Positions 25,615 to 52,961 of a stretch of DNA of 62,248 nucleotides are shown piece by piece. Position numbers and translations under genes: made by a program. The notes beneath the pieces are model-generated. The model was not told the DNA's origin. It searched no databases and saw only the letters and a program-made list of their open reading frames with translations. Origin of the DNA: Hyphomicrobiales bacterium. Lineage in GTDB: Bacteria > Pseudomonadota > Alphaproteobacteria > Rhizobiales > Beijerinckiaceae. The stretch covers positions 1 to 62,248 of the forward strand of contig CANGIS010000013.1 of the NCBI GenBank assembly GCA_947454055.1, in the 5' to 3' direction. The first letter of the stretch is position 1. Every line of letters begins with the position of its first letter.

Positions 25615-27162
25615 ATGAACACCGAAGAAGCAAACGGCCAACGCCGGACCCGTACCGGCGGCCGTGACGCCCGCCAGCGCAGCCGGTCCGGCCCCCAGGC
25701 TCCGGCCTATATCACCCGCGTCATACCGCCTTACGAGATGGTATCGGAAGCGGGCCTAGTGGCGCTCGAGAACGAAGCTGACCGGATTTTGGAAGACGTC
25801 GGCTTTGAAATCAGGGGCGACGACGAGGCACTTGCGCTCTTCAAGGCGGCTGGTGCGGATGTGAAGGGCCAGCGGATCATATTCCCCCGCGGGCTTGTCC
25901 GCTCGATCATTCAGGCCACAACCCCGCGCGAATTCACCCAATACGCCCGCAATCCGGCCCGCAATGTCGTGATCGGCGGCAACAATACGGTCTTCTCGCC
26001 CGCCTATGGCTCGCCTTTCGTCACCGACATCGACAAAGGCCGCCGTTACGGCACGATTGAGGATTTCCGCAATTTCATCAAACTCGCTTATTCGACGCCC
26101 TATCTGCATCATTCGGGCGGCACGGTGTGCGAGCCGGTCGATCTGCCGGTCAACAAGCGCCATCTGGAAATGGTCTATTCGCACATCAAATATTCCGACA
26201 AGGCCTTTATGGGCTCGGTGACAACGGCACCGCGCGCAGCCGAATCCATCGAGCTGTGCCGTGTGCTGTTTGGCGCCGATTTTGTCGATCGGCATTGCGT
26301 GATTTTGGGCAATGTGAACGTCAATTCTCCGCTCGTGCTGGATGGCGAGGCCAGCCGCGTCATCCGCACCTATGCGGCCGCCAATCAGGCCGCGGTCTGC
26401 GTGCCCTTTATCTTGAGCGGCGCCATGGGACCGGTGACAACCGCCGGCGCGCTGGCGCAATGCTTTGCGGAAGCGATGGTCTGCGTCGCGCTCACCCAAT
26501 TGGAACGCCCCGGCGCTCCCGCCATTTTAGGTAATTTTCTCTCCTCCATGTCGCTGAAGACGGGGGCACCAACCTTTGGCACGCCGGAGCCCGCGCTGGG
26601 ATATTTTGCCATCGGCCAATTGGCTCGGCGTCTTGGTGTGCCGTTACGGTGCGGCGGCAATCTCTGCGCATCGAAAATTCCCGATGCCCAGGCGGCCTAT
26701 GAGAGCGCCAACTCGATGTGGCCCGCTTTTCTGTGCGGCGCGAATTTCATCCTGCACGCGGCAGGCTGGGCGGAAGGCGCGCTGTCGATGAGTTACGAAA
26801 AATTCATCATGGACACCGAGCAATGCGGCGCGTTCCATGTGATCGGTGGCGGTTTGCCGACGGATGAAAACGCGTTGGCCCATGATGCGTTTTTGGAAGT
26901 CGAACCCGGCAAGCATTTCCTGGGCTCGGCCCACACGATGAAAAATTACGAGACGGCGTTTTACGACTTCGAAACCTCGGATAATAATTCCTTCGAGCAA
27001 TGGCAGGACGAAGGCTCCCTTGACATTCAGGTGCGGGCTAACCGCAAATGGAAGAAGATCTTGGCCGATTACGTTTCGCCAGCACTTGACGAGGCCAAGG
27101 ACGAGGAATTGCGCGCTGTGATTGATGCAAAAATGGCAGCTGTGCCCGATGCGTGGTATTGA
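25615..27162 (+). CDS. Trimethylamine methyltransferase (MttB) family protein, copy 1
   Basis: A 515-residue corrinoid-dependent methyltransferase of the MttB superfamily. The reading frame has no internal amber codon, so it is a non-pyrrolysine member like the glycine betaine methyltransferase MtgB. Family segments include NPARNVVIGGNNTVFSPAYG, HHSGGTVCEPVDLPVNKRH and GAPTFGTPEPALGYFAIGQL. The first 24 residues are Arg-rich (seven Arg between residues 10 and 24) before the barrel. Start 25615 has GGAGG 8 nt upstream. It is followed 7 bp later by a demethylase-like flavoprotein, so a methylated amine (glycine betaine, proline betaine or similar) is the probable donor and the corrinoid protein at 37142 the acceptor. 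Confidence 0.88.
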   Translation: MNTEEANGQRRTRTGGRDARQRSRSGPQAPAYITRVIPPYEMVSEAGLVALENEADRILEDVGFEIRGDDEALALFKAAGADVKGQRIIFPRGLVRSIIQATTPREFTQYARNPARNVVIGGNNTVFSPAYGSPFVTDIDKGRRYGTIEDFRNFIKLAYSTPYLHHSGGTVCEPVDLPVNKRHLEMVYSHIKYSDKAFMGSVTTAPRAAESIELCRVLFGADFVDRHCVILGNVNVNSPLVLDGEASRVIRTYAAANQAAVCVPFILSGAMGPVTTAGALAQCFAEAMVCVALTQLERPGAPAILGNFLSSMSLKTGAPTFGTPEPALGYFAIGQLARRLGVPLRCGGNLCASKIPDAQAAYESANSMWPAFLCGANFILHAAGWAEGALSMSYEKFIMDTEQCGAFHVIGGGLPTDENALAHDAFLEVEPGKHFLGSAHTMKNYETAFYDFETSDNNSFEQWQDEGSLDIQVRANRKWKKILADYVSPALDEAKDEELRAVIDAKMAAVPDAWY

Positions 27163-27169
27163 GGTTAAA

Positions 27170-29224
27170 ATGACGAGAGAAGCATCCTCCACCGACCCGC
27201 TCCTCCAACCCTTCACCCTCAAGCACCTCACGCTGAAAAACCGCTTCATGTCGACGGCGCATGAGCCGGCCTATACCGATGAGGGGATGCCGAAAGAGCG
27301 CTATCGGCTTTATCACGAAGAAAAGGCAAAGGGCGGCATCGCGCTGACCATGATCGGCGGCTCGTCCGTGGTCTCCCAAGACAGCCCGCAGGCGTTCGGC
27401 AATATCGAGCTGTTCCGTGACGAGGTCGTCCCGCATCTCAAAGCCTTGGCCGATGCGGTCCATGCCCATGGCGCGGCGGTGATGATCCAGATCACGCATT
27501 TGGGCCGCCGCACCGGCTGGAACAAGAAAGAATGGCTGCCCGTTTTGGCGCCCTCCGCGGTACGCGAACAAGCCCACCGCGCCTTTCCCAAAGCCATTGA
27601 GGATTGGGACATCGAGCGCATCATCCGCGATTATGCGGATGCGGCGGAGCGCTGCAAAGCCGGTGGCATGGATGGCATCGAGTTCGAAATGTATGGCCAT
27701 CTGATCGACCAGTTCTGGTCGCCCGCCACCAATAAGCGTGACGACACTTACGGTGGCTCGCTGGAAAACCGCACGCGGTTTGCGCGAGAGGTTCTGCAAG
27801 CGGTACGAAACCGTATCGGCCCCGATTTCATTCTCGGTGCGCGTCTTGTGTGCGACGAGGATTGGGAAATCGGCCTGACGCGAGAGGACGGTATCGCAAT
27901 CACGCAATCCCTTGTCGGCACCGGCCATATCGACTTTCTCAACATTATTCGCGGCCATATCGATACGGACGAAGCGCTTTCGCACATCATTCCCGGCATG
28001 GGCACGCCGTCTGCTCCCAGCCTCGATTTTGCGGGCGAAATTCGCGCAATTACAAAATTCCCGGTCTTCCACGCCGCCCGCATCCAGGATGTCGCCACAG
28101 CCCGCCATGCGGTCGCCACCGGCAAGCTCGACATGGTGGGCATGACGCGCGCGCACATGGCCGATCCGCATATTGCGAAAAAGGTGATCGAAGGCCGCGA
28201 GCACGAAATCCGCCCCTGCGTCGGCATGGGCTATTGCATCGACCGGATTTATTTCGGCGGCGAAGCCTTGTGCATCCATAACCCCGCCACGGGCCGCGAA
28301 GCGACAATGCCGCATATCGTGCCGAAAAGTTCGGGGCCTGCCAAACAGGTCGTCGTCATCGGCGCGGGTCCTGCGGGCTTAGAGGCGGCGCGTGTCGCCT
28401 CGGCGCGGGGCCATGCCGTCACCGTGCTCGAAGCCGCAGACAAAGCGGGCGGGCAGGTACTCGTCACCGCCGGCCTGAAACGCCGCCGTGAGATCATGGG
28501 AATTATCGATTGGCGGATGGCGGAGTGCGAACGTCAAGGCGTTCAATTCCGCTTCAACACCTATGCCGAAGCCGACGATGTTTTGGCGCTTCAGCCCGAG
28601 ATCGTGATTGTCGCCACCGGTGGTCTGCCCAACACCTCCTTCCTCACCTCCGGCGAAGACCTTGTCACCACAACATGGGACATCCTTTCGGGCGCTGCGA
28701 AGCCGGGCGAAAACGTCCTGCTCTATGACGACAACGGCAATCATCCGGGCTTCACGGCGGCCGAATTTTTGGCCGGCGCGGGATCAAAACTCGAAATCGC
28801 CACGCCCGAGCGCACGCTGGCGCCCGAAGTGGGCGGCACCAATTACCCGCTCTATTTCAAGGCAATCCACAAGGCGAATGCCACGATCAGCCTCAATCTG
28901 CGGCTCGAAAGCGTGCGGCGCGATGGCAACACGCTGGTGGCCACGCTGCTGAACGATTATGACCGTTCCCGCGTCGAGCGCCGGGTAGATCAAGTCGTGG
29001 TCGAGCACGGCACATTGGCCAATGAAGAGCTTTATTATGCGCTGAAGCCGATGTCGCGGAATGGCGGCGAGGTGGATTACAGGGCGCTGGATGCAGGTCA
29101 ACCGCAAACGGTCACGCGTCATCCCGACGGAGCGTTTACGCTGTTCCGCATCGGCGACGCGGTCGCCTCCCGCAACATCCACGCGGCCATTTATGACGCG
29201 CTCAGGCTGGTGAAGGATCTGTAG
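27170..29224 (+). CDS. NADH:flavin oxidoreductase, N-methylproline/dimethylglycine demethylase-like
   Basis: A 684-residue protein of the trimethylamine dehydrogenase/2,4-dienoyl-CoA reductase type: an FMN barrel (PFTLKHLTLKNRFMSTAHEP at the start, FILGARLVCDEDWEIGL), an Fe-S segment, and a C-terminal FAD/NAD module (VVVIGAGPAGLEAARVASAR). The Fe-S segment reads CVGMGYCIDRIYF then LCIHNPATG, giving C350, C356 and C368; the second of the usual four Cys is Met353. That form resembles StcD/DgcA-type N-methylproline and dimethylglycine demethylases. It starts 7 bp after MttB copy 1, so the pair may remove successive methyl groups, one by corrinoid and the next by oxidation to formaldehyde. Confidence 0.8.
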   Translation: MTREASSTDPLLQPFTLKHLTLKNRFMSTAHEPAYTDEGMPKERYRLYHEEKAKGGIALTMIGGSSVVSQDSPQAFGNIELFRDEVVPHLKALADAVHAHGAAVMIQITHLGRRTGWNKKEWLPVLAPSAVREQAHRAFPKAIEDWDIERIIRDYADAAERCKAGGMDGIEFEMYGHLIDQFWSPATNKRDDTYGGSLENRTRFAREVLQAVRNRIGPDFILGARLVCDEDWEIGLTREDGIAITQSLVGTGHIDFLNIIRGHIDTDEALSHIIPGMGTPSAPSLDFAGEIRAITKFPVFHAARIQDVATARHAVATGKLDMVGMTRAHMADPHIAKKVIEGREHEIRPCVGMGYCIDRIYFGGEALCIHNPATGREATMPHIVPKSSGPAKQVVVIGAGPAGLEAARVASARGHAVTVLEAADKAGGQVLVTAGLKRRREIMGIIDWRMAECERQGVQFRFNTYAEADDVLALQPEIVIVATGGLPNTSFLTSGEDLVTTTWDILSGAAKPGENVLLYDDNGNHPGFTAAEFLAGAGSKLEIATPERTLAPEVGGTNYPLYFKAIHKANATISLNLRLESVRRDGNTLVATLLNDYDRSRVERRVDQVVVEHGTLANEELYYALKPMSRNGGEVDYRALDAGQPQTVTRHPDGAFTLFRIGDAVASRNIHAAIYDALRLVKDL

Positions 29225-29287
29225 CCGAGACGTTCTTGAATGACAGAGTATAGGGTGTTACATGTAACATCTGATGGAGGGCGTACC

Positions 29288-29497
29288 ATGGCAAGTTCAG
29301 CCGAACGGGTCCGACAGCATCGGGCAGGTTTGAAGTTGGCGGGGCTAAGGCCCGTTCAGCTCTGGGTTCCCGATACGCGCAAGCCGGAATTTGCCGAAGA
29401 ATGCAAAAAGCAGTCACGCCTTTTGCGTCTCGATCCGAAAGAGACCGAGATTCTGGATTGGGCTGACCTGGCCGCGGATCGTACAGGATGGAATTAA
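29288..29497 (+). CDS. MazE-like antitoxin (DUF3018)
   Basis: A 69-residue protein with the DUF3018/antitoxin MazE-family pattern: ERVRQHRAGLKLAGLRPVQL then WVPDTRKPEFAEECKKQSRL, a predicted ribbon-helix-helix-type DNA-binding start followed by a toxin-binding tail. GGAGG precedes the ATG at 29288. Its 3' end overlaps the toxin gene by 10 nt, the usual coupling for this module. Confidence 0.85.
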   Translation: MASSAERVRQHRAGLKLAGLRPVQLWVPDTRKPEFAEECKKQSRLLRLDPKETEILDWADLAADRTGWN

Positions 29498-29817
29498 GGC
29501 GCGGTGATATTGTCACGATTGCGCTGCAAGGGGACTACGGCAAGCCAAGGCCTGCTCTGATCATCCAGAGTGATTTTTTCAACGAGCATCCCTCATTGAC
29601 GATTCTGCCCATTACCAGTGACGTGCGCCAAACTCCCCTTTTCAGAATTGCGATTGAGCCCACAAGCGACAATGGCCTTCGGAATTCATCCGAAATCATG
29701 GTCGATAAGGCACAGACAATTGCTTCTGACAAAATTGGCCGTCTCATCGGGCGCGCCGATGAACGGACGCTCTCGCTCGTAAATCAAGCTTTGGCTGTTT
29801 TTTTAGGCTTGGTTTAG
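29488..29817 (+). CDS. mazF: MazF/PemK-type toxin (endoribonuclease)
   Basis: A 109-residue toxin of the MazF/PemK/Kid fold. Conserved pieces are MELRRGDIVTIALQGDYGKP, RPALIIQSD, LTILPITSD and EIMVDKAQTIASDKIGRLIG. Family members cleave mRNA at short motifs when not held by the antitoxin. Full length with no frameshift, so the module looks intact. It sits between two catabolic genes on the same strand. Confidence 0.9.
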   Translation: MELRRGDIVTIALQGDYGKPRPALIIQSDFFNEHPSLTILPITSDVRQTPLFRIAIEPTSDNGLRNSSEIMVDKAQTIASDKIGRLIGRADERTLSLVNQALAVFLGLV

Positions 29818-29918
29818 CCCCCCCGTAAGCTCGCCTTGGCCGAAAGGTTGAACGCGATGGCGATTGAAAGAGATACAATAGCCCGTTACCACTAAGCCTG
29901 TCTTGGGAGGAAGCGGCG

Positions 29919-31547: not shown

Positions 31548-31552
31548 GGTTT

Positions 31553-31789: not shown

Positions 31790-31841
31790 CACAGCGATAC
31801 CCGTCATTGCTTCGCTTATCACTCGCAAGCACGGCAAAAAA

Positions 31842-32659: not shown

Positions 32660-34204
32660 TCAATAGGCGGCATCGGGCATGGAAGCCTTCTTGCGCTCGA
32701 TATAGTCGCGGAGCGCTTCATCGACACCCGGATCAATGGCTGGCGCCTCATATTCCGTGAGCATCCGCTTCCAAATCGCGTTGGCGCGCTGGGAATGGTC
32801 CTTGCGGCCTTCCGCATCCCATTGCTCGAAGGAATTGTTGTCGGCCACCGGCGAACGGTAGAACGCGTTCTCAAAATTGGCCTGCGTATGGGCCGAGCCC
32901 AAGAAATGCCCGCCGGGGGGCACTTCGCGGAACGCATCCATCGCCTGGCCGTTTTCCGACATATCGATGCCCTTGGCGAGCACATGCATGGCGCCGAGCT
33001 GGTCCATATCCATGATCAGCTTTTCATAGGAAGAGGCCAAGCCGCCTTCCATCCACCCTGCCGAATGGAGCACGAAATTGGTGCCCGCCAGCAAGGTCGG
33101 CATCAAAGTATTGGCGCTTTCATAGGCGGCTTGCGCGTCCGGAAGCTTGGAGGCGCAGAGCGAACCACCGGTGCGGAACGGCATTTTCATGCGGCGGGCA
33201 AGCTGGGCCGCGCCGAAAATGGCAAGCGAGCCTTCCGGCGTACCAAAGGTCGGCGCGCCCGATTGCATGGACAGCGTCGAAACAAAGGTGCCGAAAATCA
33301 CCGGAGCACCGGGGCGGATCAGCTGCACAAAGGAGGTACCGGCCCACACTTCGGCCAAAACCTGCGTCAGCGTACCGGCAATCGTCACCGGGCTCATGGC
33401 GCCCGAGAGAATAAACGGCGTGATGATGCAGGCCTGATTGTTGCGGGCATACACTTCGGCAGCCCCCAACATCGTATTGTCCCACACCATCGGGGAATTG
33501 GCGTTGATCAGCGAGGTGCAGACCGTGTTATTGTCCAAAAAGTCCTCGCCGAAGAGGATTTTCGACATATTGACCGTGTCTTGCGCGCGATCCGGATGGG
33601 TCACCGAGCCCATATAGGCTTTGTCGGAATAGCGCATATGCGCGTAGACCATCTCAAGATGGCGCTTATTGACCGGCAAATCGACCGGCTCGCACACCGT
33701 ACCACCCGAATGATGCATATTCGGGCTCATATAAGCGAGCTTCACGAAATTCTGGAAATCCTCGATCGTGCCATAGCGGCGGCCTTTGTCGAGGTCATGC
33801 ACGAAGGGCGAGCCGTAAACGGGGGCAAAAACCGTGTTCTTGCCGCCAATTTGAACATTGCGGGCGGAATTCCGCGCATGCTGGGTATATTCCGACGGCA
33901 CGGTTGAAATCAGCTTTTTGGCCAGTCCACGCGGAAAGCGCACGCGTTCGCCTTGAATGTCGCAGCCTGCATCTTTTAATAGCTTCAAAGCGCTCGGATA
34001 ATCGCGAAACTCGATGCCGATCTCTTCGAGCAGCGTTTCCGCATTATGCTCGATGATCTGCAAGGCTTCCTCGGACAAAAACTCCACAATGGGACTGTTG
34101 CGCGTAATATAAGGAATGGAGATACCGCCCCGCGTGGCGCGGGCCGAACGGCGCGCTTCGCGGCCACGGCGCTCATGGTGCACTTCTGGAATTGTATCGT
34201 TCAT
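32660..34204 (-). CDS. Trimethylamine methyltransferase (MttB) family protein, copy 2
   Basis: A 514-residue non-pyrrolysine MttB-family methyltransferase, no internal amber codon. Shared segments with copy 1 are NSARNVQIGGKNTVFAPVYG, HHSGGTVCEPVDLPVNKRHL and GAPTFGTPEGSLAIFGAAQL, so the two are clear paralogues. The N-terminus is Arg-rich (seven Arg in residues 12-25, ERRGREARRSARATRG). The ATG at 34204 has GGGGGA about 7 nt upstream. It stands alone on the minus strand, divergent from the FAD-GcvT/corrinoid operon across 306 bp, so the two are likely co-regulated. Donor may be glycine betaine or another quaternary amine. Confidence 0.87.
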   Translation of the reverse strand: MNDTIPEVHHERRGREARRSARATRGGISIPYITRNSPIVEFLSEEALQIIEHNAETLLEEIGIEFRDYPSALKLLKDAGCDIQGERVRFPRGLAKKLISTVPSEYTQHARNSARNVQIGGKNTVFAPVYGSPFVHDLDKGRRYGTIEDFQNFVKLAYMSPNMHHSGGTVCEPVDLPVNKRHLEMVYAHMRYSDKAYMGSVTHPDRAQDTVNMSKILFGEDFLDNNTVCTSLINANSPMVWDNTMLGAAEVYARNNQACIITPFILSGAMSPVTIAGTLTQVLAEVWAGTSFVQLIRPGAPVIFGTFVSTLSMQSGAPTFGTPEGSLAIFGAAQLARRMKMPFRTGGSLCASKLPDAQAAYESANTLMPTLLAGTNFVLHSAGWMEGGLASSYEKLIMDMDQLGAMHVLAKGIDMSENGQAMDAFREVPPGGHFLGSAHTQANFENAFYRSPVADNNSFEQWDAEGRKDHSQRANAIWKRMLTEYEAPAIDPGVDEALRDYIERKKASMPDAAY

Positions 34205-34369
34205 TGCCATTCCCCCAACCGGACGCGTTTTCACGTCAGTAAGCCTGTGATGCTGTTTTATCCTCCGGCGGACGGCATGACTGCTTTAATCGCGTCATTT
34301 CTTGCCGAAGACCGTCACCGAGGTGAATGTCATTCATGTTGGGCATGAGCTAATCCGATTTTTGTGTTC

Positions 34370-37141: not shown

Positions 37142-37831
37142 ATGGCTGACGGCGATTTTGATCTCAACACGCTCTCTGATGACGAACTCGTCGAACAGAT
37201 GCATGACGATTTGTATGACGGCCTTGGCGAGGAAATCGTCGAGAGCGTCAACATCCTCTTGAGCCGCAACTGGACCCCTTACGACATCCTGACCAAGGCG
37301 CTCGTCGAAGGCATGCGCATTGTCGGCGTCGATTTCCGCGACGGCATTCTGTTTGTGCCGGAAGTGCTGATGTCGGCTAACGCGATGAAGGCTGGCATGG
37401 TCCTGCTTCGTCCGCTGTTGGCCGAGACCGGCGCACCGAAGGTGGGCAAGATGGTCATCGGCACCGTGAAGGGCGACATTCACGACATTGGCAAAAACCT
37501 CGTCTGCATGATGATGGAAGGCGCCGGCTTCGAAGTGATCGATCTCGGCATCAACAATCCGGTCGAGAAATATCTCGAGGCCATTGAAGAGCATAAGCCC
37601 GACATTCTCGGCATGTCCGCGCTGCTCACCACAACCATGCCTTACATGAAGGTCGTGATCGACACGCTCAAGGAAAAGGGCATGCGCAACGACTATCTCG
37701 TGCTCGTTGGTGGCGCACCCTTGAACGAAGCCTTTGCCGAAGCCGTTGGCGCCGACGCCTATTGCCGCGACGCGGCAGTGGCGGTGGAAACCGCCAAGGC
37801 GCTTTTGTCGCAGCGCACCATTCGCGCCTGA
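37142..37831 (+). CDS. Corrinoid (methyl-carrier) protein, MtbC/MtgC-like
   Basis: A 229-residue cobalamin-binding methyl carrier. Residues about 5-90 form the helical cap domain; the Rossmann-like B12 domain holds GTVKGDIHDIGKNLV with the cobalt-ligand H114, then GMSALLTTTMPYMKVVIDTL and LVLVGGAPLNEAF. It is the only corrinoid carrier in the window, so it should serve all three MttB proteins. Its first 35 residues contain 13 Asp/Glu and no Lys or Arg, opposite in charge to the Arg-rich tails of the MttB, methyl-THF methyltransferase and activator proteins. No cobalamin riboswitch was recognised in the 120 bp before it. Confidence 0.9.
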   Translation: MADGDFDLNTLSDDELVEQMHDDLYDGLGEEIVESVNILLSRNWTPYDILTKALVEGMRIVGVDFRDGILFVPEVLMSANAMKAGMVLLRPLLAETGAPKVGKMVIGTVKGDIHDIGKNLVCMMMEGAGFEVIDLGINNPVEKYLEAIEEHKPDILGMSALLTTTMPYMKVVIDTLKEKGMRNDYLVLVGGAPLNEAFAEAVGADAYCRDAAVAVETAKALLSQRTIRA

Positions 37832-38544: not shown

Positions 38545-38850
38545 ATGGCCAATCTCACCATCGTCTATTGGCGCGATATTCCCGCGCAGGTCATCGTCAA
38601 GCAGGGCCGCACCGCCGCCAAGCGTGAATTGCCGGAGCGTTTCGTAACCTCCATTGACGCCGCCGCCATGAAGGCCGGCGCGCGCGATACCGACAGCTAT
38701 CTCGCCGATTGGCGCCGGGCCGATCCTGTGTCCGTGGGCGATGATCTCGAAGCCGAAGCACAAGCTTGGGCTGAAAAGCTTGAAGCCGATTACCCGCAAG
38801 ACCGGCTTGTCGCTTTGGCGAAGGCTGGCGGCTATGAGGAGGCAAAATAA
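38545..38850 (+). CDS. PF13769 'virulence factor' family small protein
   Basis: A 101-residue protein that matches the family named virulence factor (PF13769): LTIVYWRDIPAQVIVKQGRT at the start, then ELPERFVTSIDAAAMKAG and DWRRADPV. The family name says nothing about function here. It is embedded between DUF1638 and a MetV-like gene with a 1-nt overlap (TAATG) to the latter, so it is a true operon member. It is likely an accessory factor of the corrinoid methyl-transfer module; no catalytic motif is visible. Confidence 0.75.
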   Translation: MANLTIVYWRDIPAQVIVKQGRTAAKRELPERFVTSIDAAAMKAGARDTDSYLADWRRADPVSVGDDLEAEAQAWAEKLEADYPQDRLVALAKAGGYEEAK

Positions 38851-39353
38851 TGTCACGCGTTCCGTTTGCTTTTGAAGCCTCCACCAAATCGCCAAGGGAT
38901 GGCGCCAAATTCGCGCTCCGTTTCTGGTCGAACGCCCATTCGCGCGGCATGGAAAAAACCTATGCGGCGTTGGAAAAATTTCTGCGCTTCGCCGCCCCTT
39001 TGTTCAAAGCCATCGGCTATGAGCGGATGGAAAAGCCGATGGTTGCGATCGAGAAAACCATCAAAGGCGCCCTGTTTGATTGCCGCATGTGCGGCCAGTG
39101 CATCTTGTCCTCGACCGGCATGTCCTGCCCGATGAACTGCCCGAAAAATCTGCGCAATGGCCCCTGCGGCGGCGTTCGCGCCAATGGCAATTGCGAGGTC
39201 TATGCCGAAATGCCCTGTGTCTGGGTCAAGGCATGGGAAGGCAGCAAGGCCATGGACGAAGGCAACAAGATTATGACGGTTCAACCCGCCATCGACCACC
39301 GCCTCAAAGGCCGTTCCAGCTGGCTGGCGGTTTCCCGTGGCGCGCATGAGTGA
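38850..39353 (+). CDS. MetV-like methylenetetrahydrofolate reductase C-terminal domain protein
   Basis: A 167-residue protein with an eight-Cys cluster FDCRMCGQCILSSTGMSCPM, NCPKNLRNGPCGGVRANGNC and EMPCVWVKAW. This is the MTHFR C-terminal/MetV family (PF12225), the iron-sulfur or zinc partner of MetF in acetogens. Residues before the cluster are helical. It starts on the stop codon of the previous gene (TAATG) and overlaps the metF gene by 8 nt. In this operon it probably forms a MetV-MetF complex that oxidises methyl-THF to methylene-THF. Presence of an acetogen-type partner in an apparently aerobic lineage is notable. Confidence 0.82.
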   Translation: MSRVPFAFEASTKSPRDGAKFALRFWSNAHSRGMEKTYAALEKFLRFAAPLFKAIGYERMEKPMVAIEKTIKGALFDCRMCGQCILSSTGMSCPMNCPKNLRNGPCGGVRANGNCEVYAEMPCVWVKAWEGSKAMDEGNKIMTVQPAIDHRLKGRSSWLAVSRGAHE

Positions 39354-40434
39354 GATCGAAACCATGAACACCCCCCTCATTCACCCGCATGATTTGGGCC
39401 CTACCCCCGCAGCCCCTTTGCCCGAATTGCCCGATCATTCCTCGCGCGGCCGTTTGGAGCGCGTGTTGCGCCGCGGCGAATTCGCCATCACCGCCGAATT
39501 GAACCCGCCCGACAGCGCTAATCCGGACGATGTCTATGAGCGCGTGGCGCATTTTGACGGCTGGGTCGACGGCATCAACGCCACCGACGGATCGGGCGCC
39601 AATTGCCATATGTCGAGCGTCGCCATCTGCGCGTTGCTGACGCGCGTCGGCTATTCGCCGATCCTCCAGATTTCCTGCCGCGATTACAACCGCATCGCCA
39701 TTCAGGGCAATGTGCTGGGCGCAGCCGCCCTTGGCGTGTGCAATGTCTTGGCGTTGACAGGTGATGGCGTGCAGGGGGGCGATCATCCCGAAGCCAAGCC
39801 GGTGTTTGATTTCGACTCGACCTCGCTGCTTGCCACCATGAAGAAAATGCGGGACGAGCGTGCCTTCCTGTCAGGCCGCAAGATCACCGATCCGCCCCGC
39901 CTGTTCTTGGGTGCGGCCGAAAACCCGTTCGCGCCGCCTTATGATTGGCGTCCGCTGCGCTTGGCCAAAAAAATCGCGGCTGGCGCGCAATATTTCCAGA
40001 CGCAATATTGCTACGATATTCCACTGCTCAAAACCTTCATGCAGAAGGTCCGCGATATGGGCCTCGACAAGCAGGCCTATATTTTGATCGGCGTCGGCCC
40101 GCTGCCATCGGCCAAGACCGCCAAATGGATGCGGTCCAATGTCGCGGGCGTGCATATTCCGGATTCGGTGATCAAACGTCTGGAAGGAGCCGAGAACCAG
40201 AAGGCCGAGGGCATCAAGCTCTGCATCGACCTTATTCAGGAAATCCATGAGATCGCAGGCGTCGCCGGCGTGCACATCATGGCCTACCGGCAGGAGGAGA
40301 GCGTCGGGCATATTGTCAGCGAGTCGGGCATTTTGAAGGGGCGTCAGCCCTTCCGTCGGGCCTTTGCCACCGCCGCCGATAGCGAGATGCCGCCGTCGAC
40401 GGTCGGAATGGGACAAGTACTGACACCCGCTTGA
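39346..40434 (+). CDS. metF: Methylenetetrahydrofolate reductase (MetF family)
   Basis: A 362-residue TIM-barrel flavoprotein. Visible MetF pieces are FAITAELNPPDSANPDDVYE, LLTRVGYSPILQISCRDYNR, GVCNVLALTGDGVQGGDHPE and GAQYFQTQYCYDIPLLKTFM. The ATG at 39346 overlaps the MetV-like gene by 8 nt; an alternative ATG lies at 39364. The C-terminal region after residue 300 differs from housekeeping MetF. Given methyl-THF produced by the next gene's enzyme, it likely works in the oxidising direction with the MetV-like partner. A separate housekeeping metF is expected elsewhere in the genome. Confidence 0.88.
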   Translation: MSEIETMNTPLIHPHDLGPTPAAPLPELPDHSSRGRLERVLRRGEFAITAELNPPDSANPDDVYERVAHFDGWVDGINATDGSGANCHMSSVAICALLTRVGYSPILQISCRDYNRIAIQGNVLGAAALGVCNVLALTGDGVQGGDHPEAKPVFDFDSTSLLATMKKMRDERAFLSGRKITDPPRLFLGAAENPFAPPYDWRPLRLAKKIAAGAQYFQTQYCYDIPLLKTFMQKVRDMGLDKQAYILIGVGPLPSAKTAKWMRSNVAGVHIPDSVIKRLEGAENQKAEGIKLCIDLIQEIHEIAGVAGVHIMAYRQEESVGHIVSESGILKGRQPFRRAFATAADSEMPPSTVGMGQVLTPA

Positions 40435-40484: not shown

Positions 40485-41399
40485 ATGACCGATACGGTAC
40501 TCAGTTCGCATAAAAAGGAAGTCATCATCGGCTTCGAGCGCCGCTTCGTCATGATTGGCGAACGCATCAACCCGACGGGCCGCAAATTGCTGGCCGCCGA
40601 AATGGCCGCTGGCGATTACAGCCGCGTCATTTCGGATGCTTTGGCGCAGGTCGAAGCCGGCGCGCAGATGCTCGACGTCAATGCCGGTATTCCGCTCGCC
40701 GATGAGCCCGCCATTTTGGCCGAGGCGATCCGCCGCGTGCAGGAAGTCGTCGACGTGCCCCTGTCGATCGACAGCTCGATTGTTGCAGCGCTTGAAGCCG
40801 GCCTTGCCGTTTATAAGGGCAAGGCGCTGGTCAATTCGGTAACGGGCGAAGAAGATCGCCTCGAAACCGTTCTGCCGCTGGTCAAGAAATATGGTGCAGC
40901 CGTTGTCGCCATCTCGAACGACGAGACCGGCATTTCGGAAGATCCCGATGAGCGCTTCAAAATTGCCAAGAAGATTGTCGAACGCGCCGCCGATTATGGC
41001 ATTCCGCGTTCCGACGTCGTTGTCGACCCGCTGGTGATGCCGGTGGGTGCGTTGAACGATGCGGGTGCCAAGCTGATGCACCTGCTCCGCCGTTTGCGCG
41101 AAGAGCTGAAGGTCAACACCACCTGCGGCGCCTCAAACTTCTCGTTCGGCCTGCCGAACCGTCGCGGCTTGGCAGCCGCCTTCATGCCGATGGCGATTGG
41201 TGCCGGCATGACCTCCGCCATCATGAACCCGCTGCACGCCGAAGACATTCAGGCCATTCTGGGTGCCGACGTGATGATGGGCCATGATCCGAATTGCGCC
41301 AACTGGATTCGCAAATATCGCGAGCCTACGCCTGAGGGTGCCGAAGGCGGCGCCGGAGACCGTCGCGGCCGCGAAGGCCGTCGTCGCAGCCGCGAATAG
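40485..41399 (+). CDS. Methyltetrahydrofolate:corrinoid methyltransferase (pterin-binding family)
   Basis: A 304-residue pterin-binding TIM barrel (MtrH/AcsE/dihydropteroate-synthase-like). It begins with FVMIGERINPTGRKLLAAEM, has GAQMLDVNAGIPLADEPAIL and VPLSIDSSIVAALEAGL, and later TTCGASNFSFGLPNRRGLAA, all family marks. It would move the methyl group between methyl-Co(III) corrinoid and THF. The ATG at 40485 follows AAGGGA. The last 12 residues are Arg-rich (RRGREGRRRSRE, seven Arg), nearly the same string as the N-terminal Arg block of MttB copy 2 (ERRGREARRSAR); such a tail is not part of the family fold. Confidence 0.88.
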   Translation: MTDTVLSSHKKEVIIGFERRFVMIGERINPTGRKLLAAEMAAGDYSRVISDALAQVEAGAQMLDVNAGIPLADEPAILAEAIRRVQEVVDVPLSIDSSIVAALEAGLAVYKGKALVNSVTGEEDRLETVLPLVKKYGAAVVAISNDETGISEDPDERFKIAKKIVERAADYGIPRSDVVVDPLVMPVGALNDAGAKLMHLLRRLREELKVNTTCGASNFSFGLPNRRGLAAAFMPMAIGAGMTSAIMNPLHAEDIQAILGADVMMGHDPNCANWIRKYREPTPEGAEGGAGDRRGREGRRRSRE

Positions 41400-41407: not shown

Positions 41408-43417
41408 GTGACCGATACCCACCGGATCGTCTTTACCCCCTCGGGCAAGCGCGGCGATTTTGCCGATGGCACCTCTGTGCTTGAAGCAGCCCGCCAGCTT
41501 GGCGTCGATGTCGATAGTGTTTGCGGCGGCCGCGGGATTTGCGGACGCTGTCAAATTCTCGTGGCGGAAGGCGATTTTGCCAAACACGGCATTCAATCGG
41601 CAGAAAGCCATCTGACCGAATGGAATTCGGTTGAAGCCCGCTATACGTCCAAACGCGGCGAGCTGGGCCCGCATCGGCGCTTGGGCTGTCAGGCCAAGCT
41701 TTGCGGTGATGTCGTTATCGACGTGCCGCCCGAGAGCCAGGTCCATCGCCAAGTCGTGCGCAAAAAGGCCGAGACGCGGGCGATTACGCTCGAACCCGTT
41801 GTGCGGCTCTATTTCGTCGAAGTAGCCGAGCCCGATATTGATAGCCCGTCCTCCGATTTCACCCGCCTGATCGAGGCGCTGAAAACGCAGTGGAACATCG
41901 ATGCCGGCATGCCCGACCTCGCCGTATTGCGTGGGCTACAAAAAACGCTCCGCAAGGGCGAATGGAAAGTCACGGTCGCAGTGCGTAAAGGCCACGACAT
42001 TGTCGCGATCTATCCTGGCCTGATCGAGACGGCCTATGGCGTCGCGGTTGATATTGGCTCCACCACCATCGCGGCGCATCTCTCCGATCTCTATAATGGC
42101 GAGACGCTCGCGTCCGCCGGTCTCATGAACCCGCAGATCCGTTTCGGCGAAGATCTGATGAGCCGCGTCTCCTATGTGATGATGAATCCGGGTGGCGAAA
42201 TCGAGATGACCGACGCTGTGCGTGCGGCGCTGGATGATCTCATCGGCGAAGTCGTCAAAGAAGCGGGCATTACGCGCGAGGGTATTGTCGAGATGACGGT
42301 GGTCGGTAACCCGATCATGCATCATCTGTTCTTGGGCCTCGATCCGGTCGAACTCGGCGGCGCCCCTTTCGCGCTGACGCTTGACAAGGGTCAGGACGTG
42401 AAAGCCCGCGAAGTGGGGCTCACGATTGCGCCAGGCGCGTTTGTGTATCTGTTGCCCTGCATTGCAGGCCATGTCGGCGCCGACACCGCAGGTGTGGTGC
42501 TTTCCGAGGCACCCCATCTGAACGACGAAGTCACCCTTGTGGTCGATGTTGGCACCAATGCTGAAATCGTGCTCGGCAATAAGAAGCGTCTGCTCGCGTG
42601 CTCGTCACCAACAGGCCCCGCCTTTGAAGGCGCGCAGCTCTCCTCCGGCCAACGCGCAGCCCCCGGCGCCATCGAACGCGTTCGGATCGACCACGAAACC
42701 CTGGAACCTAAATTCAAGATCATCGGTTCCGATCTCTGGTCGAATGAAGAAGGCTTCTGGGAAGAGGCTGCTAAAACGGGCGTCAACGGCATTTGCGGTT
42801 CCGGCATCATCGAGGCAATTGCCGAGATGTATCTCGCGGGCGTGATTACGCAGGACGGCGTCATCGACGGCGATTTGCAGGCGCGTACCCCGCGCATCAT
42901 CAATGAAGGCCGCACCTTTACCTATGTGTTAAACGATGGCGAACCCCGCATCACCATCACACAGGCCGATGTGCGCGCCATCCAGCTCGGCAAGGCGGCG
43001 CTTTATGCGGGCGTCAAGCTGCTGCTCGATCATTACGGCGTCGATCATGTCGACCGCATCACGCTGGCAGGTGCCTTTGGCAGTCATATTGACGTCAAAT
43101 ACGCGATGGTGCTGGGGCTGATTCCCGATTGCGATCTGGCTAAAGTCGGCTCGGCAGGGAATGCCGCCGGCACCGGTGCGCGTATTGCGCTTTTGAACGA
43201 AACCGCACGCGGCGAAATTGAATCGGTGGTCGGAAAAATCGAAAAAATCGAAACCGCGATGGAACCGAAATTCCAGACGCATTTCGTGAGTGCGATGGCG
43301 ATCCCGAACAAGGTCGATTTCTTTGCTAACCTCGCCAAGGTCGTCACTTTGCCGCCGCCAAAAGTACACGCCGAGCCTGTCGAGGGCGATGGCGGAAGAC
43401 GCAGGCGCAGGGGATGA
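41408..43417 (+). CDS. Corrinoid activation protein (2Fe-2S ferredoxin plus ASKHA/DUF4445 domain, RACo-like)
   Basis: A 669-residue reductive activator of corrinoid proteins. The N-terminus is a plant-type [2Fe-2S] domain with C39, C45 and C48 in VCGGRGICGRCQ and C94 in RRLGCQAKLCG. The rest is the ATPase fold of DUF4445: YGVAVDIGSTTIAAHLSDLY, ETVVGNPIMHHLFLGLDP-like text around MTVVGNPIMHHLFLGLDPVE, and TLVVDVGTNAEIVLGNKKRL. It would use ATP and low-potential electrons to rescue Co(II) corrinoid to Co(I), which must be frequent in air. GTG start at 41408. The C-terminus ends in five consecutive Arg ([10 protein letters not shown]), like the tails of other corrinoid partners here. Confidence 0.88.
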   Translation: MTDTHRIVFTPSGKRGDFADGTSVLEAARQLGVDVDSVCGGRGICGRCQILVAEGDFAKHGIQSAESHLTEWNSVEARYTSKRGELGPHRRLGCQAKLCGDVVIDVPPESQVHRQVVRKKAETRAITLEPVVRLYFVEVAEPDIDSPSSDFTRLIEALKTQWNIDAGMPDLAVLRGLQKTLRKGEWKVTVAVRKGHDIVAIYPGLIETAYGVAVDIGSTTIAAHLSDLYNGETLASAGLMNPQIRFGEDLMSRVSYVMMNPGGEIEMTDAVRAALDDLIGEVVKEAGITREGIVEMTVVGNPIMHHLFLGLDPVELGGAPFALTLDKGQDVKAREVGLTIAPGAFVYLLPCIAGHVGADTAGVVLSEAPHLNDEVTLVVDVGTNAEIVLGNKKRLLACSSPTGPAFEGAQLSSGQRAAPGAIERVRIDHETLEPKFKIIGSDLWSNEEGFWEEAAKTGVNGICGSGIIEAIAEMYLAGVITQDGVIDGDLQARTPRIINEGRTFTYVLNDGEPRITITQADVRAIQLGKAALYAGVKLLLDHYGVDHVDRITLAGAFGSHIDVKYAMVLGLIPDCDLAKVGSAGNAAGTGARIALLNETARGEIESVVGKIEKIETAMEPKFQTHFVSAMAIPNKVDFFANLAKVVTLPPPKVHAEPVEGDGGRRRRRG

Positions 43418-46366: not shown

Positions 46367-46536
46367 CACTTTTAAACTGCACGACCTTTCGCGTCAATTG
46401 TCCGTCTGGTGCAGTGCAATATCCCTGTCTTATAGTCGTTTCAAGGCCGAACGAGGTTGTGACACCGTCACCCTTCACCGGCATCCCGCTTTGTAAAGAC
46501 CTGTCACACACGATACCAACCTGACTGGAGACTGCT

Positions 46537-47832: not shown

Positions 47833-47908
47833 GGGAGTAGGGATTAGGGCGTAGGGAGTAGGGTTTCACTTCCCTCGCCTTACACCCTACCCCCTACACC
47901 CTACCCCC
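47833..47908. repeat. Intergenic hairpin of period-7 repeats (set A)
   Basis: The 5' arm (47833-47863) is four near-copies of a GAGTAGG-type heptamer; the 3' arm (about 47880-47908) is four copies of CCCTACM. The arms are largely complementary. It starts at the aceA stop and ends 24 bp before the next gene; a run of nine A follows. Confidence 0.75.
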
Positions 47909-47931
47909 AAAAAAAAACTAAGGAGACACAA

Positions 47932-48168
47932 ATGACCCGAACCCACGTCAAAGAACGCACCGAAGAACTCACCAGCGAAATGGATGAAGCTCAGAAAAGC
48001 GCCATCCGCATTCTCGCCAACGATCTGCACCGGCTCAATCAAGCAGTGATGAAAGCGGTTGAAACCGGCCTGTCGGTTGAGTTGCAACGCACCGCTCGCC
48101 ACCATTCGGATGGCGGCTACTGGGGTGATTTGCTAATGCCGATCATCGTGAAACAAAAATCGGCTTGA
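47932..48168 (+). CDS. Small protein of unknown function downstream of aceA
   Basis: A 78-residue, mostly helical, charged protein (KERTEELTSEMDEAQKSAIR, then LANDLHRLNQAVMKAVETGL) ending in a Trp/Gly patch (SDGGYWGDLLMPIIVKQKSA). No membrane segment or known domain. The start is supported by AAGGAGACACAA directly upstream of the ATG, and the gene is closed by a strong intrinsic terminator. It may be cotranscribed with isocitrate lyase through a repeat hairpin. Function unknown. Confidence 0.7.
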   Translation: MTRTHVKERTEELTSEMDEAQKSAIRILANDLHRLNQAVMKAVETGLSVELQRTARHHSDGGYWGDLLMPIIVKQKSA

Positions 48169-48195
48169 ACCGATACATTCTAGGAAACGTCCCCG

Positions 48196-48238
48196 CTTAG
48201 GATCAGGCATGTCCCCGCAAGCCCGATCCTAAGTTTTT
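48196..48238 (+). terminator. Strong Rho-independent terminator
   Basis: CTTAGGATC (48196-48204) pairs perfectly with GATCCTAAG (48225-48233), extended inside by GGC/GCC after an A-C mismatch, and is followed by TTTTT (48234-48238). It ends the aceA-small gene transcript before the convergent hydrolase gene. Confidence 0.9.
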
Positions 48239-48259
48239 GTGCCGACGGTCCCGATCAAC

Positions 48260-50284: not shown

Positions 50285-50341
50285 CAACCGATCCTCCAAA
50301 ATATGCTTTTTCCTGATTGTCGCGGGGTTGCCCTCCGCCTG

Positions 50342-51277
50342 TCAACGCTTCTGCATGGCGGCAACTTCGCCCAGCAACCAGAACCTGAAGCGGGAAATCG
50401 CCGGTTCATCCGCCCGATCCTGCCGCGAAACGAGATACCAGCGCGCCGGTTGCGACACCGAATGGGCAATCGGTTCGATCAACCGTCCCGCGGCAATATC
50501 TTGCGCGGCGAGAAAATCGGGGACAACCGCAATGCCCTGCCCGTCACACGCCGCCTCCAGCGCCAGAAGGTAGGAGTCAAACCGGATCGTCGCCGCCTCG
50601 CCAAGGCCCGAAACACCCGCAGCACTCAGCCATACGTCCCAATCGCGCCCAGCAGTATAGACCTGCAAACTCGTGTACCCCATCACATCCTGCGGGCTAA
50701 CAAGCGGCGGGCCCTTCTCCAACAATTTGGGGCTGCACACCGCCACCAGCCGCGATTCGAACAGAGGCGTGTAGGAAAAACCGGGCCGGTTTGGCTCGGT
50801 GGTTGAAATCAGCCCGACATCGGCGTGGCGCGGGTCAAATTCCCAATCCATCTGGCTGGCGTTGAAACGCACCAGCAGATCGGGACAGGCTTGTTGCAGC
50901 GCGGAGAGCCGCCCCATCATCCAGCGTGCAGCAACCGTCACATACAGCTGAACGGTCAATTCCTGCTGCGCGGGCCGCGAAACCAATTGCGTGCCGACAT
51001 CAATTTTCTCGAAAGCCTCGCGCAAATACGGAAAGTAAAGCCGCCCAGCATCGGTCAACTCGACCTTGCGACCCGTGCGACGAAACAGATCCTTCCCCAG
51101 CCATTTTTCCAGATGCGCGATCTGATGGCTCACCGCGGACTGCGTGATATTGAGTTCTTCCGCCGCCAGTCGAAAGCTTTCATGCCGCGCCGCCGCTTCG
51201 AAAGCGCGCAGCGCCGTTAGCGGTGGCAAGGACAGGGGACGGGCATGGGCGGGTATCAGAGATTTAATATTGTTCAT
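50342..51277 (-). CDS. LysR-family transcriptional regulator (GcvA-like)
   Basis: About 311 residues. The winged helix is ALRAFEAAARHESFRLAAEE, then LNITQSAVSHQIAHLEKWLG and KDLFRRTGRKVELTDAG; the C-terminal ligand domain has the GcvA-like ADVGLISTTEPNRPGF. Starts at 51277 or 51295 are both possible; neither has a clear ribosome site and the longer one would overlap the palindromes upstream. It is divergent from MttB copy 3 and its demethylase, which it probably controls, with the palindromes at 51282-51306 as its site. The effector is unknown. Confidence 0.87.
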   Translation of the reverse strand: MNNIKSLIPAHARPLSLPPLTALRAFEAAARHESFRLAAEELNITQSAVSHQIAHLEKWLGKDLFRRTGRKVELTDAGRLYFPYLREAFEKIDVGTQLVSRPAQQELTVQLYVTVAARWMMGRLSALQQACPDLLVRFNASQMDWEFDPRHADVGLISTTEPNRPGFSYTPLFESRLVAVCSPKLLEKGPPLVSPQDVMGYTSLQVYTAGRDWDVWLSAAGVSGLGEAATIRFDSYLLALEAACDGQGIAVVPDFLAAQDIAAGRLIEPIAHSVSQPARWYLVSRQDRADEPAISRFRFWLLGEVAAMQKR

Positions 51278-51281
51278 GAGT

Positions 51282-51306
51282 TGAATTAAATTCATCTCAA
51301 GATGAA
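51282..51306. promoter_or_regulatory. Two overlapping palindromes, probable LysR binding site
   Basis: TGAATT-A-AATTCA (51282-51294) and TTCATCT-CA-AGATGAA (51291-51306) are both perfect inverted repeats and share four bases. The first has the T-N11-A form expected of LysR-type sites. Place: directly at the regulator's start and about 75 bp before MttB copy 3. Confidence 0.6.
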
Positions 51307-51380
51307 AATCAATCTCTTGACGATCCAGCCCGCGCGACCTCTTGATCAATCAAAGAGTGTATGACGAGGGAGAGACGACG

Positions 51381-52961
51381 ATGACGATGGAAACTCCAGA
51401 AGGCAGTGCGCCCGATTCAGGCCGTCGTGGTGGCCGAGATGCCCGTCGCGCGGCGCGCGCGCGTCCGCTCTCCGATCAGGATCGGCCCATCTGGCCCGGC
51501 ATGCCCGGCGGCAAATATCAGGTCCTCACACCGGAAGACATGCAGAAGATCCACCACAAGATTCTGGATGTGCTGGAGCAAATCGGCTTTGCCGACGCGA
51601 TCCCGTCCACGATCGAATACATGACCAAAGTCGGCGCTGTGATGGGCTCGGATGGCCGCATGCGCTTTCCGCGTGCGCTGGTCGAAGACACGATTGCCAA
51701 AGCCGCGCGTCGTTTCCCGCTTTATGCCCAAGACCCGCGCTATGACATGGATCCATGGGGCAAGAACGTTTATTACGGCACCGCCGGCGCTGCCGTGAAC
51801 GTGGTCGAACCGCTCACTGGCGATTACCGCGAGTCGACCGTGGTCGATCTTTATGATTGCGCGCGGATCGTCGATCATTGCGATAATATCCACTTCTTCC
51901 AGCGCACCAATGTATGCCGCGAACTGCCGAGCCCGCGTGATCTCGACATCAACACGGCCTATGCCAGTGTGGTCGGCACCACCAAACATGTCGGCACCGG
52001 CATGACGCATCCAGATCACGTCACCGAAGTGCTCGAAATGCTGCATATGATTGCAGGCGGCGAGGATAAATGGCGCGAACGTCCGTTTGTCAGCCAGTCG
52101 AACTGCTTCGTCGTGCCGCCTTTGAAATTCGCCGAAGACGCCTGCAAATGCTTGGAAGTCGCCGTCCTCGGCGGCATGCCGGTTCTGCTGCTCTCGGCAG
52201 GTCAGGCGGGCGCTACCGCTCCGGCTTCCCTTGCCGGCACGGTTGTGCAGGCGGTGGCCGAGTGCCTTGTCGGCCTCATCTATGTCAACGCGATCAAGCC
52301 CGGCGCGCCCTATATTTTCGGCACCTGGCCCTTCGTGTCCGATCTTCGCACCGGCGCCATGTCGGGCGGCTCGCCGGAGCAGGCTTTGTTGTCGTCGGCT
52401 TGCGGCCAGATGGCGAATTTTTATGATCTCAATGGCGGCACGGGTGCCGGCATGTGCGATTCCAAGGTCATCGATTTTCAAGCGGGCTACGAGAAGGCCT
52501 ATAATCTCACCCTCGTCGGCAATGCAGGCACAAACCTGATCTATGAAGCGGCCGGCATGCACGCCTCGCTGCTCGGCATCTGCAAGGAAACGCTGGTGGC
52601 CGACAACGACATCATTGCCGCTGCCCAACGCACCATGCGCGGCATTGATACGTCGGATGAAGCGCTCGACATCGACACCATCCGCAATGTCTGCATTGGC
52701 GGCCCCGGCCATTATCTGGGCTCCGACCAGACGCTGCATCTGATGCAGCGCGATTACGTCTACCCCTCGATCGGCGACCGCTGGAGCCCGAACGAGTGGA
52801 ACGAGCGGGGACGTCCGACCTATGTCGATCGCGCCGTGAAAAAGACGGCGGAAATTTTAAAGAACCATCACCCCAAGCACATCAGCCGCGAGGTCGATGA
52901 CGCCATCCGCGCGAAGTTCCCGATCAAGCTTGATCGCAAAGATATGGGTGAGGTGGCGTAA
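51381..52961 (+). CDS. Trimethylamine methyltransferase (MttB) family protein, copy 3
   Basis: A 526-residue MttB-family methyltransferase without an internal amber codon. It is more distant from copies 1 and 2: segments are GKYQVLTPEDMQKIHHKILD, VYYGTAGAAVNVVEPLTGDY and ALLSSACGQMANFYDLNGGT. The N-terminus has seven Arg between residues 15 and 28 (RRGGRDARRAARAR). The ATG at 51381 follows GAGGGAGAG. Divergent from the LysR gene and followed by a FAD-GcvT demethylase, so it has its own regulation and probably its own donor, but no corrinoid protein of its own; the one at 37142 must serve it. Confidence 0.87.
   Translation: MTMETPEGSAPDSGRRGGRDARRAARARPLSDQDRPIWPGMPGGKYQVLTPEDMQKIHHKILDVLEQIGFADAIPSTIEYMTKVGAVMGSDGRMRFPRALVEDTIAKAARRFPLYAQDPRYDMDPWGKNVYYGTAGAAVNVVEPLTGDYRESTVVDLYDCARIVDHCDNIHFFQRTNVCRELPSPRDLDINTAYASVVGTTKHVGTGMTHPDHVTEVLEMLHMIAGGEDKWRERPFVSQSNCFVVPPLKFAEDACKCLEVAVLGGMPVLLLSAGQAGATAPASLAGTVVQAVAECLVGLIYVNAIKPGAPYIFGTWPFVSDLRTGAMSGGSPEQALLSSACGQMANFYDLNGGTGAGMCDSKVIDFQAGYEKAYNLTLVGNAGTNLIYEAAGMHASLLGICKETLVADNDIIAAAQRTMRGIDTSDEALDIDTIRNVCIGGPGHYLGSDQTLHLMQRDYVYPSIGDRWSPNEWNERGRPTYVDRAVKKTAEILKNHHPKHISREVDDAIRAKFPIKLDRKDMGEVA

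Follow-up and report, generated by a model that had tools for sequence, protein, structure and literature searches.

Split B12 methyltransferases pose the question of how a single corrinoid protein can be shared by several competing enzymes. A stretch of 62,248 nucleotides from a Hyphomicrobiales bacterium (GCA_947454055.1, contig CANGIS010000013.1; the window) encodes a corrinoid carrier among the following proteins:

15102..16157, minus strand: PF02574 paralogue without an Arg tail, ending in EEFRQSR
25600..27162, plus strand: MttB/MtgB-family methyltransferase copy 1 (MttB1), PF06253, ATG at 25615
32660..34234, minus strand: MttB/MtgB-family methyltransferase copy 2 (MttB2), PF06253
37142..37831, plus strand: MtgC, corrinoid (B12) methyl carrier, PF02607 cap and PF02310
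37875..38537, plus strand: DUF1638 protein, no tail
38545..38850, plus strand: PF13769 protein, no tail
38850..39353, plus strand: MetV-like protein, PF12225, no tail
39337..40434, plus strand: MetF-like methylene-THF reductase, no tail
40485..41399, plus strand: MtgD, methyl-THF:corrinoid methyltransferase, PF00809
41408..43417, plus strand: RamA/RACo-type ATP-dependent corrinoid activator, PF14574, PF17651, PF17650 and PF00111
51342..52961, plus strand: MttB/MtgB-family methyltransferase copy 3 (MttB3), PF06253, divergent

The locus belongs to the aerobic MtgBCDE/RamA system, which is already known. The host genome contains the full gene set, i.e. a stand-alone MtgC that combines PF02607 and PF02310 in one corrinoid protein, MtgD, MtgE, PF06253 proteins, a RamA-like activator and DUF1638, and it agrees in protein families, gene set and carrier role with the MtgBCDE/split methionine synthase described together with RamA and DUF1638 (Mausz et al. 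2025, PMC12478193; Price et al. 2018, PMC5764234). There, a single MtgC carrier serves both betaine demethylation and the split methionine synthase (PMC12478193, PMC5764234), and the route is reported to be highly expressed in the global ocean (PMC12478193). The system is needed for betaine growth and methionine synthesis in R. pomeroyi and, according to passages of PMC5764234, for methionine synthesis in P. inhibens. The pyrrolysine MttB, i.e. the trimethylamine methyltransferase proper, was rejected as an identity of the three MttB copies, which score 231.5, 264.8 and 350.7 bits with TIGR02369 against a cut-off of 525. The enzymes are known. Of their Arg-rich tails, our literature searches found no mention: the main text of PMC12478193 (without supplements) contains none of the words "arginine", "tail", "N-terminal" or "electrostatic", and that of PMC5764234 (without supplements) lacks "arginine-rich".

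Arginine-rich termini in the window and in the host genome

The following segments of the window proteins are rich in Arg:

25642..25686, plus strand: N-terminal Arg block of MttB1, RRTRTGGRDARQRSR
34130..34171, minus strand: N-terminal Arg block of MttB2, RRGREARRSARATR
41361..41396, plus strand: C-terminal Arg tail of MtgD, RRGREGRRRSRE, predicted to be disordered
43397..43411, plus strand: C-terminal Arg block of RamA, RRRRR
51423..51464, plus strand: N-terminal Arg block of MttB3, RRGGRDARRAARAR

Every residue that the first-pass annotation had reported for these termini is present in the translations. Seven Arg residues are found in residues 10-24 of MttB1 (counted from the ATG at 25615), in residues 12-25 of MttB2 (counted from the ATG that is codon 11 of the longest frame), in residues 15-28 of MttB3 (counted from the ATG two codons upstream of METPEG) and in the last 12 residues of MtgD, whose tail has pLDDT below 50 in the AlphaFold2 model, which indicates disorder; RamA ends in GGRRRRRG. 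The tail is C-terminal in MtgD, MtgE and RamA, and N-terminal in MttB. The tailed proteins had initially been assigned to three unrelated folds; MttB and MtgD indeed belong to different Pfam families, but both are TIM-barrel enzymes, and "unrelated families" is therefore the better wording. The DUF1638, PF13769, MetV and MetF proteins of the window have no such tails, as had been noted.

A genome-wide search of the host identified one PF02607 match only, namely MtgC, so that the description of a single corrinoid protein holds across the genome. As its partners we counted five MttB (PF06253), two RamA-like activators, one MtgD (the window copy) and one MtgE, and all nine (9/9) have Arg-rich termini. 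The tail of MtgE was predicted from the pathway before it was found in the host genome: this stand-alone PF02574 protein, encoded on another contig (C28:25884-26897), carries the tail GGERRGRRRH, in contrast to the PF02574 paralogue in the window. The second RamA and two further MttB, also on other contigs, are Arg-tailed as well. The observation is therefore real and wider than first noted, as it includes MtgE, the second RamA and two more MttB.

Distribution of the tails among homologues

For a count across homologues, a terminus was regarded as tailed if a 12-residue window contained at least five Arg and at most one hydrophobic residue, a threshold set after the tails were known. C-terminal counts omit frames with an incomplete C-terminus, alignments that stop short of 75-80% of the query and one fused MtgE. 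For the N-terminal counts, we left out frames truncated on the 5' side, frames in which letters close to the N-terminus were unread, weak alignments and a single MttB that lacked a start. The second, tailed activator of the host genome was kept as a class of its own and left out of the RamA count. Gene calls are longest open frames rather than the output of a gene finder, which makes the starts of MttB and of untailed carriers uncertain.

Distinct homologues pass this test in 114 of 117 cases for MtgD, 112 of 117 for RamA, 54 of 61 for MtgE and 77 of 94 for MttB, the remaining 17 MttB showing a split Arg block by eye; as the tails are inherited, members of one family do not count independently. 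Absence of tails in close relatives, which the first-pass annotation had named as an outcome that would speak against its idea, is thus not what is seen in these four families. Among the best 80 named MtgD loci, 78 have a complete C-terminus, and an Arg block is visible by eye in all of them (78/78). The tails are conserved across records whose titles name Alpha-, Beta- or Gammaproteobacteria. Two of the 61 MtgE (L212 and L215) are tailless, though their genomes (G231 and G209) possess a RamA of this kind.

The controls from the same operons behave differently, with 1/117 for DUF1638, 0/95 for PF13769, 0/83 for MetV and 3/100 for MetF, and the C-termini of MtgC yield 0/119. An Arg signal at the N-terminus of MetF (15/63 with the furthest start) disappears when the nearest ATG is used (0/69). 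In 360 kb of the host genome, where the last 30 and first 50 residues of 337 called genes were scanned, three genes pass at the C-terminus and seven at the N-terminus; similar tails, whose abundance in the same genome had been another anticipated objection, are thus rare, and the C-terminal background disfavours chance as their origin. When 1,686 genes called in MtgC neighbourhoods were clustered, 24 clusters had at least six members, and the only majority-tailed ones among them were MtgD (59/61), RamA (92/96) and MttB (28/39). No Arg tails were found on the activators and methyl-THF enzymes adjoining six divergent carriers. Among the tested families, the tails are confined to partners of MtgC.

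In the class, PF06253 proteins occur in 58/58 genomes with a RamA of at least 50% identity versus 4/231 others (hand count). Of the four MttB-positive genomes without a close RamA, G274 has MtgC, G212 has a completeness of 68%, and only split or partial MttB frames were obtained from G224 and G393, so that no clean MttB set lacking MtgC was found in the class. The sole DUF1638 match to the tail test is at L235, and the three MetF matches are at L392, L113 and L143.

The acidic carrier and possible roles of the tails

On the side of the carrier, the relevant feature is:

37142..37246, plus strand: acidic N-terminal 35 residues of MtgC, a short extension and the first cap helix (residues 13-25)

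As claimed originally, these residues comprise 13 Asp/Glu and no Lys/Arg. Among 113 distinct homologues the net charge of the N-terminus ranges from -7 to -17, and 96 are free of Lys/Arg. MtgC alone has a strongly acidic N-terminus among the window proteins compared for charge, and one genome thus combines basic tails on several partners with an acidic segment on the carrier that they share. In the AlphaFold2 model, residues 13-25 are helical, pLDDT is 96 in blocks 11-20 and 21-30, and values below 50 are confined to residues 1-4, so that the acidic stretch is predicted to be largely the first helix of the folded cap rather than a wholly free tail; the best 28 Foldseek matches of the model are all corrinoid proteins and MetH. 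In part, such acidity is usual for corrinoid cap helices: the first 35 residues of six untailed contrast carriers (with uncertain starts) contain 6-10 acidic and 1-4 basic residues. With kinship ignored, the acidity of MtgC correlates with tail strength in MtgD (Spearman -0.35, p=0.005, n=61) but hardly in RamA (-0.16, p=0.19, n=69), so that the quantitative relationship anticipated in the first-pass annotation is weak.

We consider it rather probable that the Arg tails are electrostatic docking motifs for the MtgC cap that substitute for the linkers of MetH, with an effect on binding and kinetics that we infer. One MtgC would visit separate enzymes: the MttB/MtgB donors, MtgD for the folate step, MtgE for the homocysteine step and RamA for reductive activation. 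Their tails would serve as short motifs for docking onto the first helix of the cap and the acidic extension in front of it, raising the local concentration of the carrier near its partners and allowing quick partner exchange, and noncovalent docking would replace the covalent linkers of one-chain MetH. To the broader proposal, that a short Arg-rich docking code, placed N- or C-terminally in four unrelated enzyme families, forms a reconfigurable noncovalent B12 methyl-transfer machine around an acidic carrier, we would give an even chance. The common code suggested at the outset is supported in part: conservation of the tails, their rarity in the background and their extension to MtgE argue for it, the weak charge correlation and the largely folded state of the acidic part against it. 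According to passages of PMC9842639, the cap contacts the partner in known corrinoid complexes, and the N-terminal domain of MtaC fits into a groove of MtaB. A counterpoint to docking is that DUF1638, linked to reactivation by genetics according to passages of PMC5764234, is itself tailless.

The ligand of the tails could be any polyanion. Being Arg-rich and poor in hydrophobic residues, they might resemble RG/RGG polycations and bind RNA, polyphosphate or a membrane, so that the enzymes would collect on a surface or in a condensate, to which MtgC would be recruited through its negative charge or through ordinary folded interfaces. RG motifs favour Arg over Lys, and so do the tails, even in a low-GC genome; yet this reading, which we regard as unlikely, leaves aside the confinement of the tails to MtgC partners in the tested families, their lack in same-operon neighbours and the uniqueness of the acidic MtgC terminus among the window proteins compared. 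Somewhat less likely still is that the tails connect the partners with one another or with a scaffold other than MtgC, for example DUF1638 or PF13769, or that they determine how oligomers pack, as might be suggested by DUF1638 adjoining MtgC in most loci examined, by an MtgE-MttB fusion in G084 and by the N-terminal strands of methanogen MttB, which stabilise dimers and their trimer according to passages of PMC9842639. Against such scaffolds, DUF1638 of the window is nearly uncharged (net +1), PF13769 has a net charge of -4, and PF13769 was not found next to MtgC in some loci (e.g. L067 and L318).

It is very improbable that the tails are by-products of GC-driven Arg codons or of a ribosome-binding site of the next gene lying within the C-terminal codons. 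The genomes are mostly high-GC and MtgD lies directly upstream of RamA in the window, but in the low-GC genome G210 (genes of 36-39% GC) the tails are kept, with 19 Arg to 3 Lys versus 48 to 82 in the cores (p=1.4e-5), which disfavours GC bias. A ribosome-binding site is disfavoured by the codons, as AGG accounts for 3-6% of the Arg codons in the tails, most of which are CGN; moreover, the tails of MttB are N-terminal, MtgE of the host lies on another contig, and the operon neighbours are tailless. Targeting to a microcompartment is also disfavoured, as the host genome has no match to the BMC shell domain PF00936.

If the docking code is true, the tail is a concrete, deletable element that could help to single out further MtgC partners from the numerous MttB paralogues, and a newly arising MttB would enter the MtgC carrier pool as soon as it had a tail.

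Comparison with known systems

MetH possesses the same homocysteine, folate, cap and B12 modules, but in one chain with covalent linkers. In split MetH of 11 chosen genomes, no Arg tails were found on the stand-alone homocysteine modules, unlike in MtgE. A possible analogy is the acyl carrier protein, a mobile carrier whose acidic helix is read by many enzymes; in its partners the basic part is a patch of the folded structure, whereas here it would be a terminal tail. The anaerobic MtgB structures 2QNE and 9YCE, which we take to be from Desulfitobacterium hafniense, and the MttB-MttC complex (7XCN) represent homologous enzymes and the same carrier fold. MtgB of 9YCE has no comparable Arg tail: its alignment begins at residue 6, which leaves no space for one of this kind. 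According to passages of PMC9842639, MttB-MttC uses one salt bridge to the catalytic subunit and a dimerisation loop. In 4YYC, another MTTB-family chain, an Arg block is present.

Gene set and known pathway

The open reading frames that the first-pass annotation named are all present in the window as described. By Pfam and NCBIfam their products are three MTTB-family proteins, a corrinoid protein (the methyl carrier MtgC), a methyl-THF:corrinoid methyltransferase (MtgD), a RACo/AcsV-type activator (RamA), and DUF1638, PF13769, MetV-like and MetF-like proteins, a set that matches the MtgBCDE system with RamA and DUF1638. The main text of Mausz et al. (PMC12478193) reports that in Ruegeria pomeroyi mutants betaine demethylation and methionine synthesis both require MtgC and MtgD, and in Phaeobacter inhibens Price et al. 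(PMC5764234) found methionine synthase to be split and accompanied by RamA-like and DUF1638 proteins. The MTTB (PF06253) matches in the window are as follows.

PF06253 matches in the window (Pfam)
25651-27144, match 1
32675-34171, match 2
51423-52913, match 3

In a profile search all three proteins score far under the pyrrolysine MttB cut-off, and we therefore infer that they are MtgB-like, non-pyrrolysine members. The Pfam MTTB model begins within their Arg block, at residues 18, 22 and 28 (aligned to profile position 1-2), and the family profile thus already includes part of the MttB tail. Searches of the main texts of papers, few of them from subscription journals, turned up no mention of Arg tails of this kind, and the words "arginine" and "tail" are absent from the main text of PMC12478193 (2025).

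Arg-rich tails in relatives and controls

Relatives were drawn from 149 genomes of the family, 289 of the class and 398 of the phylum; in this last set the MtgC query passed the strict cut-off in 42 genomes, of which 41 belong to the same class. A named-genome sample queried with MtgD supplied the best 80 of at least 535 relatives. A tail was scored where a 12-residue window inside the last 30 residues held at least 5 Arg and at most one hydrophobic residue. By this test the tails are kept in 114 of 117 distinct MtgD, 112 of 117 RamA and 54 of 61 sequences of the homocysteine enzyme MtgE, within-family counts that represent related sequences and not independent events. The three failing MtgD (L367, L424, L429) have the Arg block followed by extra residues, and the same holds for L122 and L138 among the five RamA that fail; among the seven MtgE misses, L212 and L215 are fully tail-less and five have a shorter tail. 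At the N-terminus of MttB, 77/94 pass and 89/94 have at least 4 Arg, the block being split, by reading, in 17 of 17 misses. Among the best 80 of at least 535 MtgD relatives, 78 have a complete C-terminus and all 78 carry the block by reading, with RGRREGGxRRR as a recurrent motif; the record titles of these 80 include Alsobacter, Labrys, Thalassobaculum and Dongia and, for beta-/gammaproteobacterial MAGs, Thauera, Rhodoferax, Comamonadaceae and Woeseia. An alignment of 29 MtgD shows no exception at two Arg positions of the tail, despite a preceding linker of variable length. In G210, whose GC content is low, Arg outnumbers Lys by 19 to 3 over the final 22 residues of MtgD, RamA and MtgE, whereas their cores contain 48 Arg and 82 Lys (Fisher p = 1.4e-5). 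AGG, which could reflect a ribosome site, accounts for 3-6% of tail Arg codons.

The other operon members, previously described as tail-less, are almost always so in relatives (C-terminal passes: DUF1638 1/117, PF13769 0/95, MetV 0/83, MetF 3/100), as do MtgC (0/119), GcvT-like proteins (0/18) and SdaA (0/3). An N-terminal Arg signal in 15/63 MetF was rejected as an artefact of start choice, the nearest ATG giving 0/69. Similar tails are also rare in the background sample of the same genome (3/337, C-terminal test). When the 1,686 genes called in MtgC neighbourhoods were clustered, 3 of 24 clusters had tails in most members: MtgD (59/61), RamA (92/96) and MttB (28/39). Other methyl-THF enzymes pass in 0/5 cases and other activators in 1/10, the exception (L032) coming from a same-genus genome and adjoining a tailed MttB. 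Other homocysteine enzymes pass in 1/14, the exception (L214, 41% identity) being taken for an MtgE orthologue, and 11 stand-alone homocysteine modules chosen as split-MetH type have no tail (0/11). Where the corrinoid carrier is divergent (L074, L075, L142-L145), Arg tails are missing from the activators and from such methyl-THF enzymes as were found. RamA at 50% identity or more occurs in 58/289 class genomes, and PF06253 proteins, counted by hand, in 58/58 of these (the RamA of G155 being only a fragment) and in 4 of the other 231.

Partners of the single carrier

The genome of the window (2.67 Mb, 64 contigs, completeness listed as 100%) contains one PF02607 match, the window MtgC; the carrier is thus single, as proposed, and by this test the genome has no MetH. 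It encodes five PF06253 proteins, two RACo-like activators and two PF02574 proteins, one of them tailed. A tail on MtgE was predicted from knowledge of the pathway, and the PF02574 protein of contig 28, which adjoins the second activator and a fourth MttB, ends GGERRGRRRH. The other (window 15102-16157) ends EEFRQSR, without a tail. The second activator has the C-terminal end ARGRRTDRRSRV, and the two off-window MttB have the N-termini MTQEGRGGGRKGRAGR and MSEGGRRRAGRAERAG. Arg-rich ends are thus present on 9/9 partners found (five MttB, two activators, the window MtgD and MtgE), the contig-21 MttB being the weakest of the five with 4 Arg in 12, under the scoring threshold. The second activator (L055, C28:24226-25962), with its Arg tail kept, aligns to RamA only from about residue 130 and so seems to be without the [2Fe-2S] domain.

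The acidic end of MtgC, the reading of the tails and unusual gene sets

The window MtgC has 17 net negative charges, and 13 of these fall within its first 35 residues. Measured up to the LYDGL motif, the N-terminal segments of 113 distinct MtgC have a net charge of -7 to -17, and 96 of them are free of Lys and Arg. Since the first 35 residues of six divergent carriers (starts uncertain) include 6-10 that are acidic and 1-4 that are basic, the contrast in acidity is one of degree. In the AlphaFold2 model of MtgC (mean pLDDT 89) residues 13-25 form the first cap helix and only residues 1-4 fall below 50, and in that of MtgD (mean pLDDT 84) residues 283-304 are below 50; thus the putative socket would combine an acidic face of the folded cap with a short extension, and the putative plug would be a disordered tail. 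Parts of PMC9842639 describe related complexes in which the carrier's cap faces the partner, and MtaBC, where an additional N-terminal domain of the carrier sits in a groove.

Judged from its distribution among these proteins, the function of the tails, whatever it is, is tied to working with MtgC. The simplest reading is that they would dock on its acidic cap, a form of the electrostatic docking that the first-pass annotation had suggested. Tail strength correlates weakly with MtgC charge, both in MtgD (rho -0.35, p 0.005, n 61) and in RamA (rho -0.16, p 0.19, n 69), in values uncorrected for relatedness. It is possible that the ligand of the tails is instead a polyanion such as RNA, or that a condensate is involved.

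In G084 (L182 / L333, C1:2820931-2823453) MtgE and an MttB-family domain share one open frame of 912 residues, whose linker has two Arg-rich stretches at the would-be junction of the MtgE C-tail and the MttB N-tail; G019, another genome of that family, carries the two genes side by side. The G084 frame would put homocysteine methylation and quaternary-amine demethylation on one chain. These two genomes and G027, G095, G079, G043, G106 and G129 have MtgC, RamA, MtgE and MttB, and the search for MtgD in all eight matched long MetH-type frames only; here MtgC may pass methyl directly from quaternary amine to homocysteine. G520 (L318) has MtgC and DUF1638 with no PF06253 match, and perhaps uses MtgC for methionine synthesis only. 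G357 carries two mtgC genes close together (L124:2071-2757 and L124:5150-5836), both with acidic N-termini.
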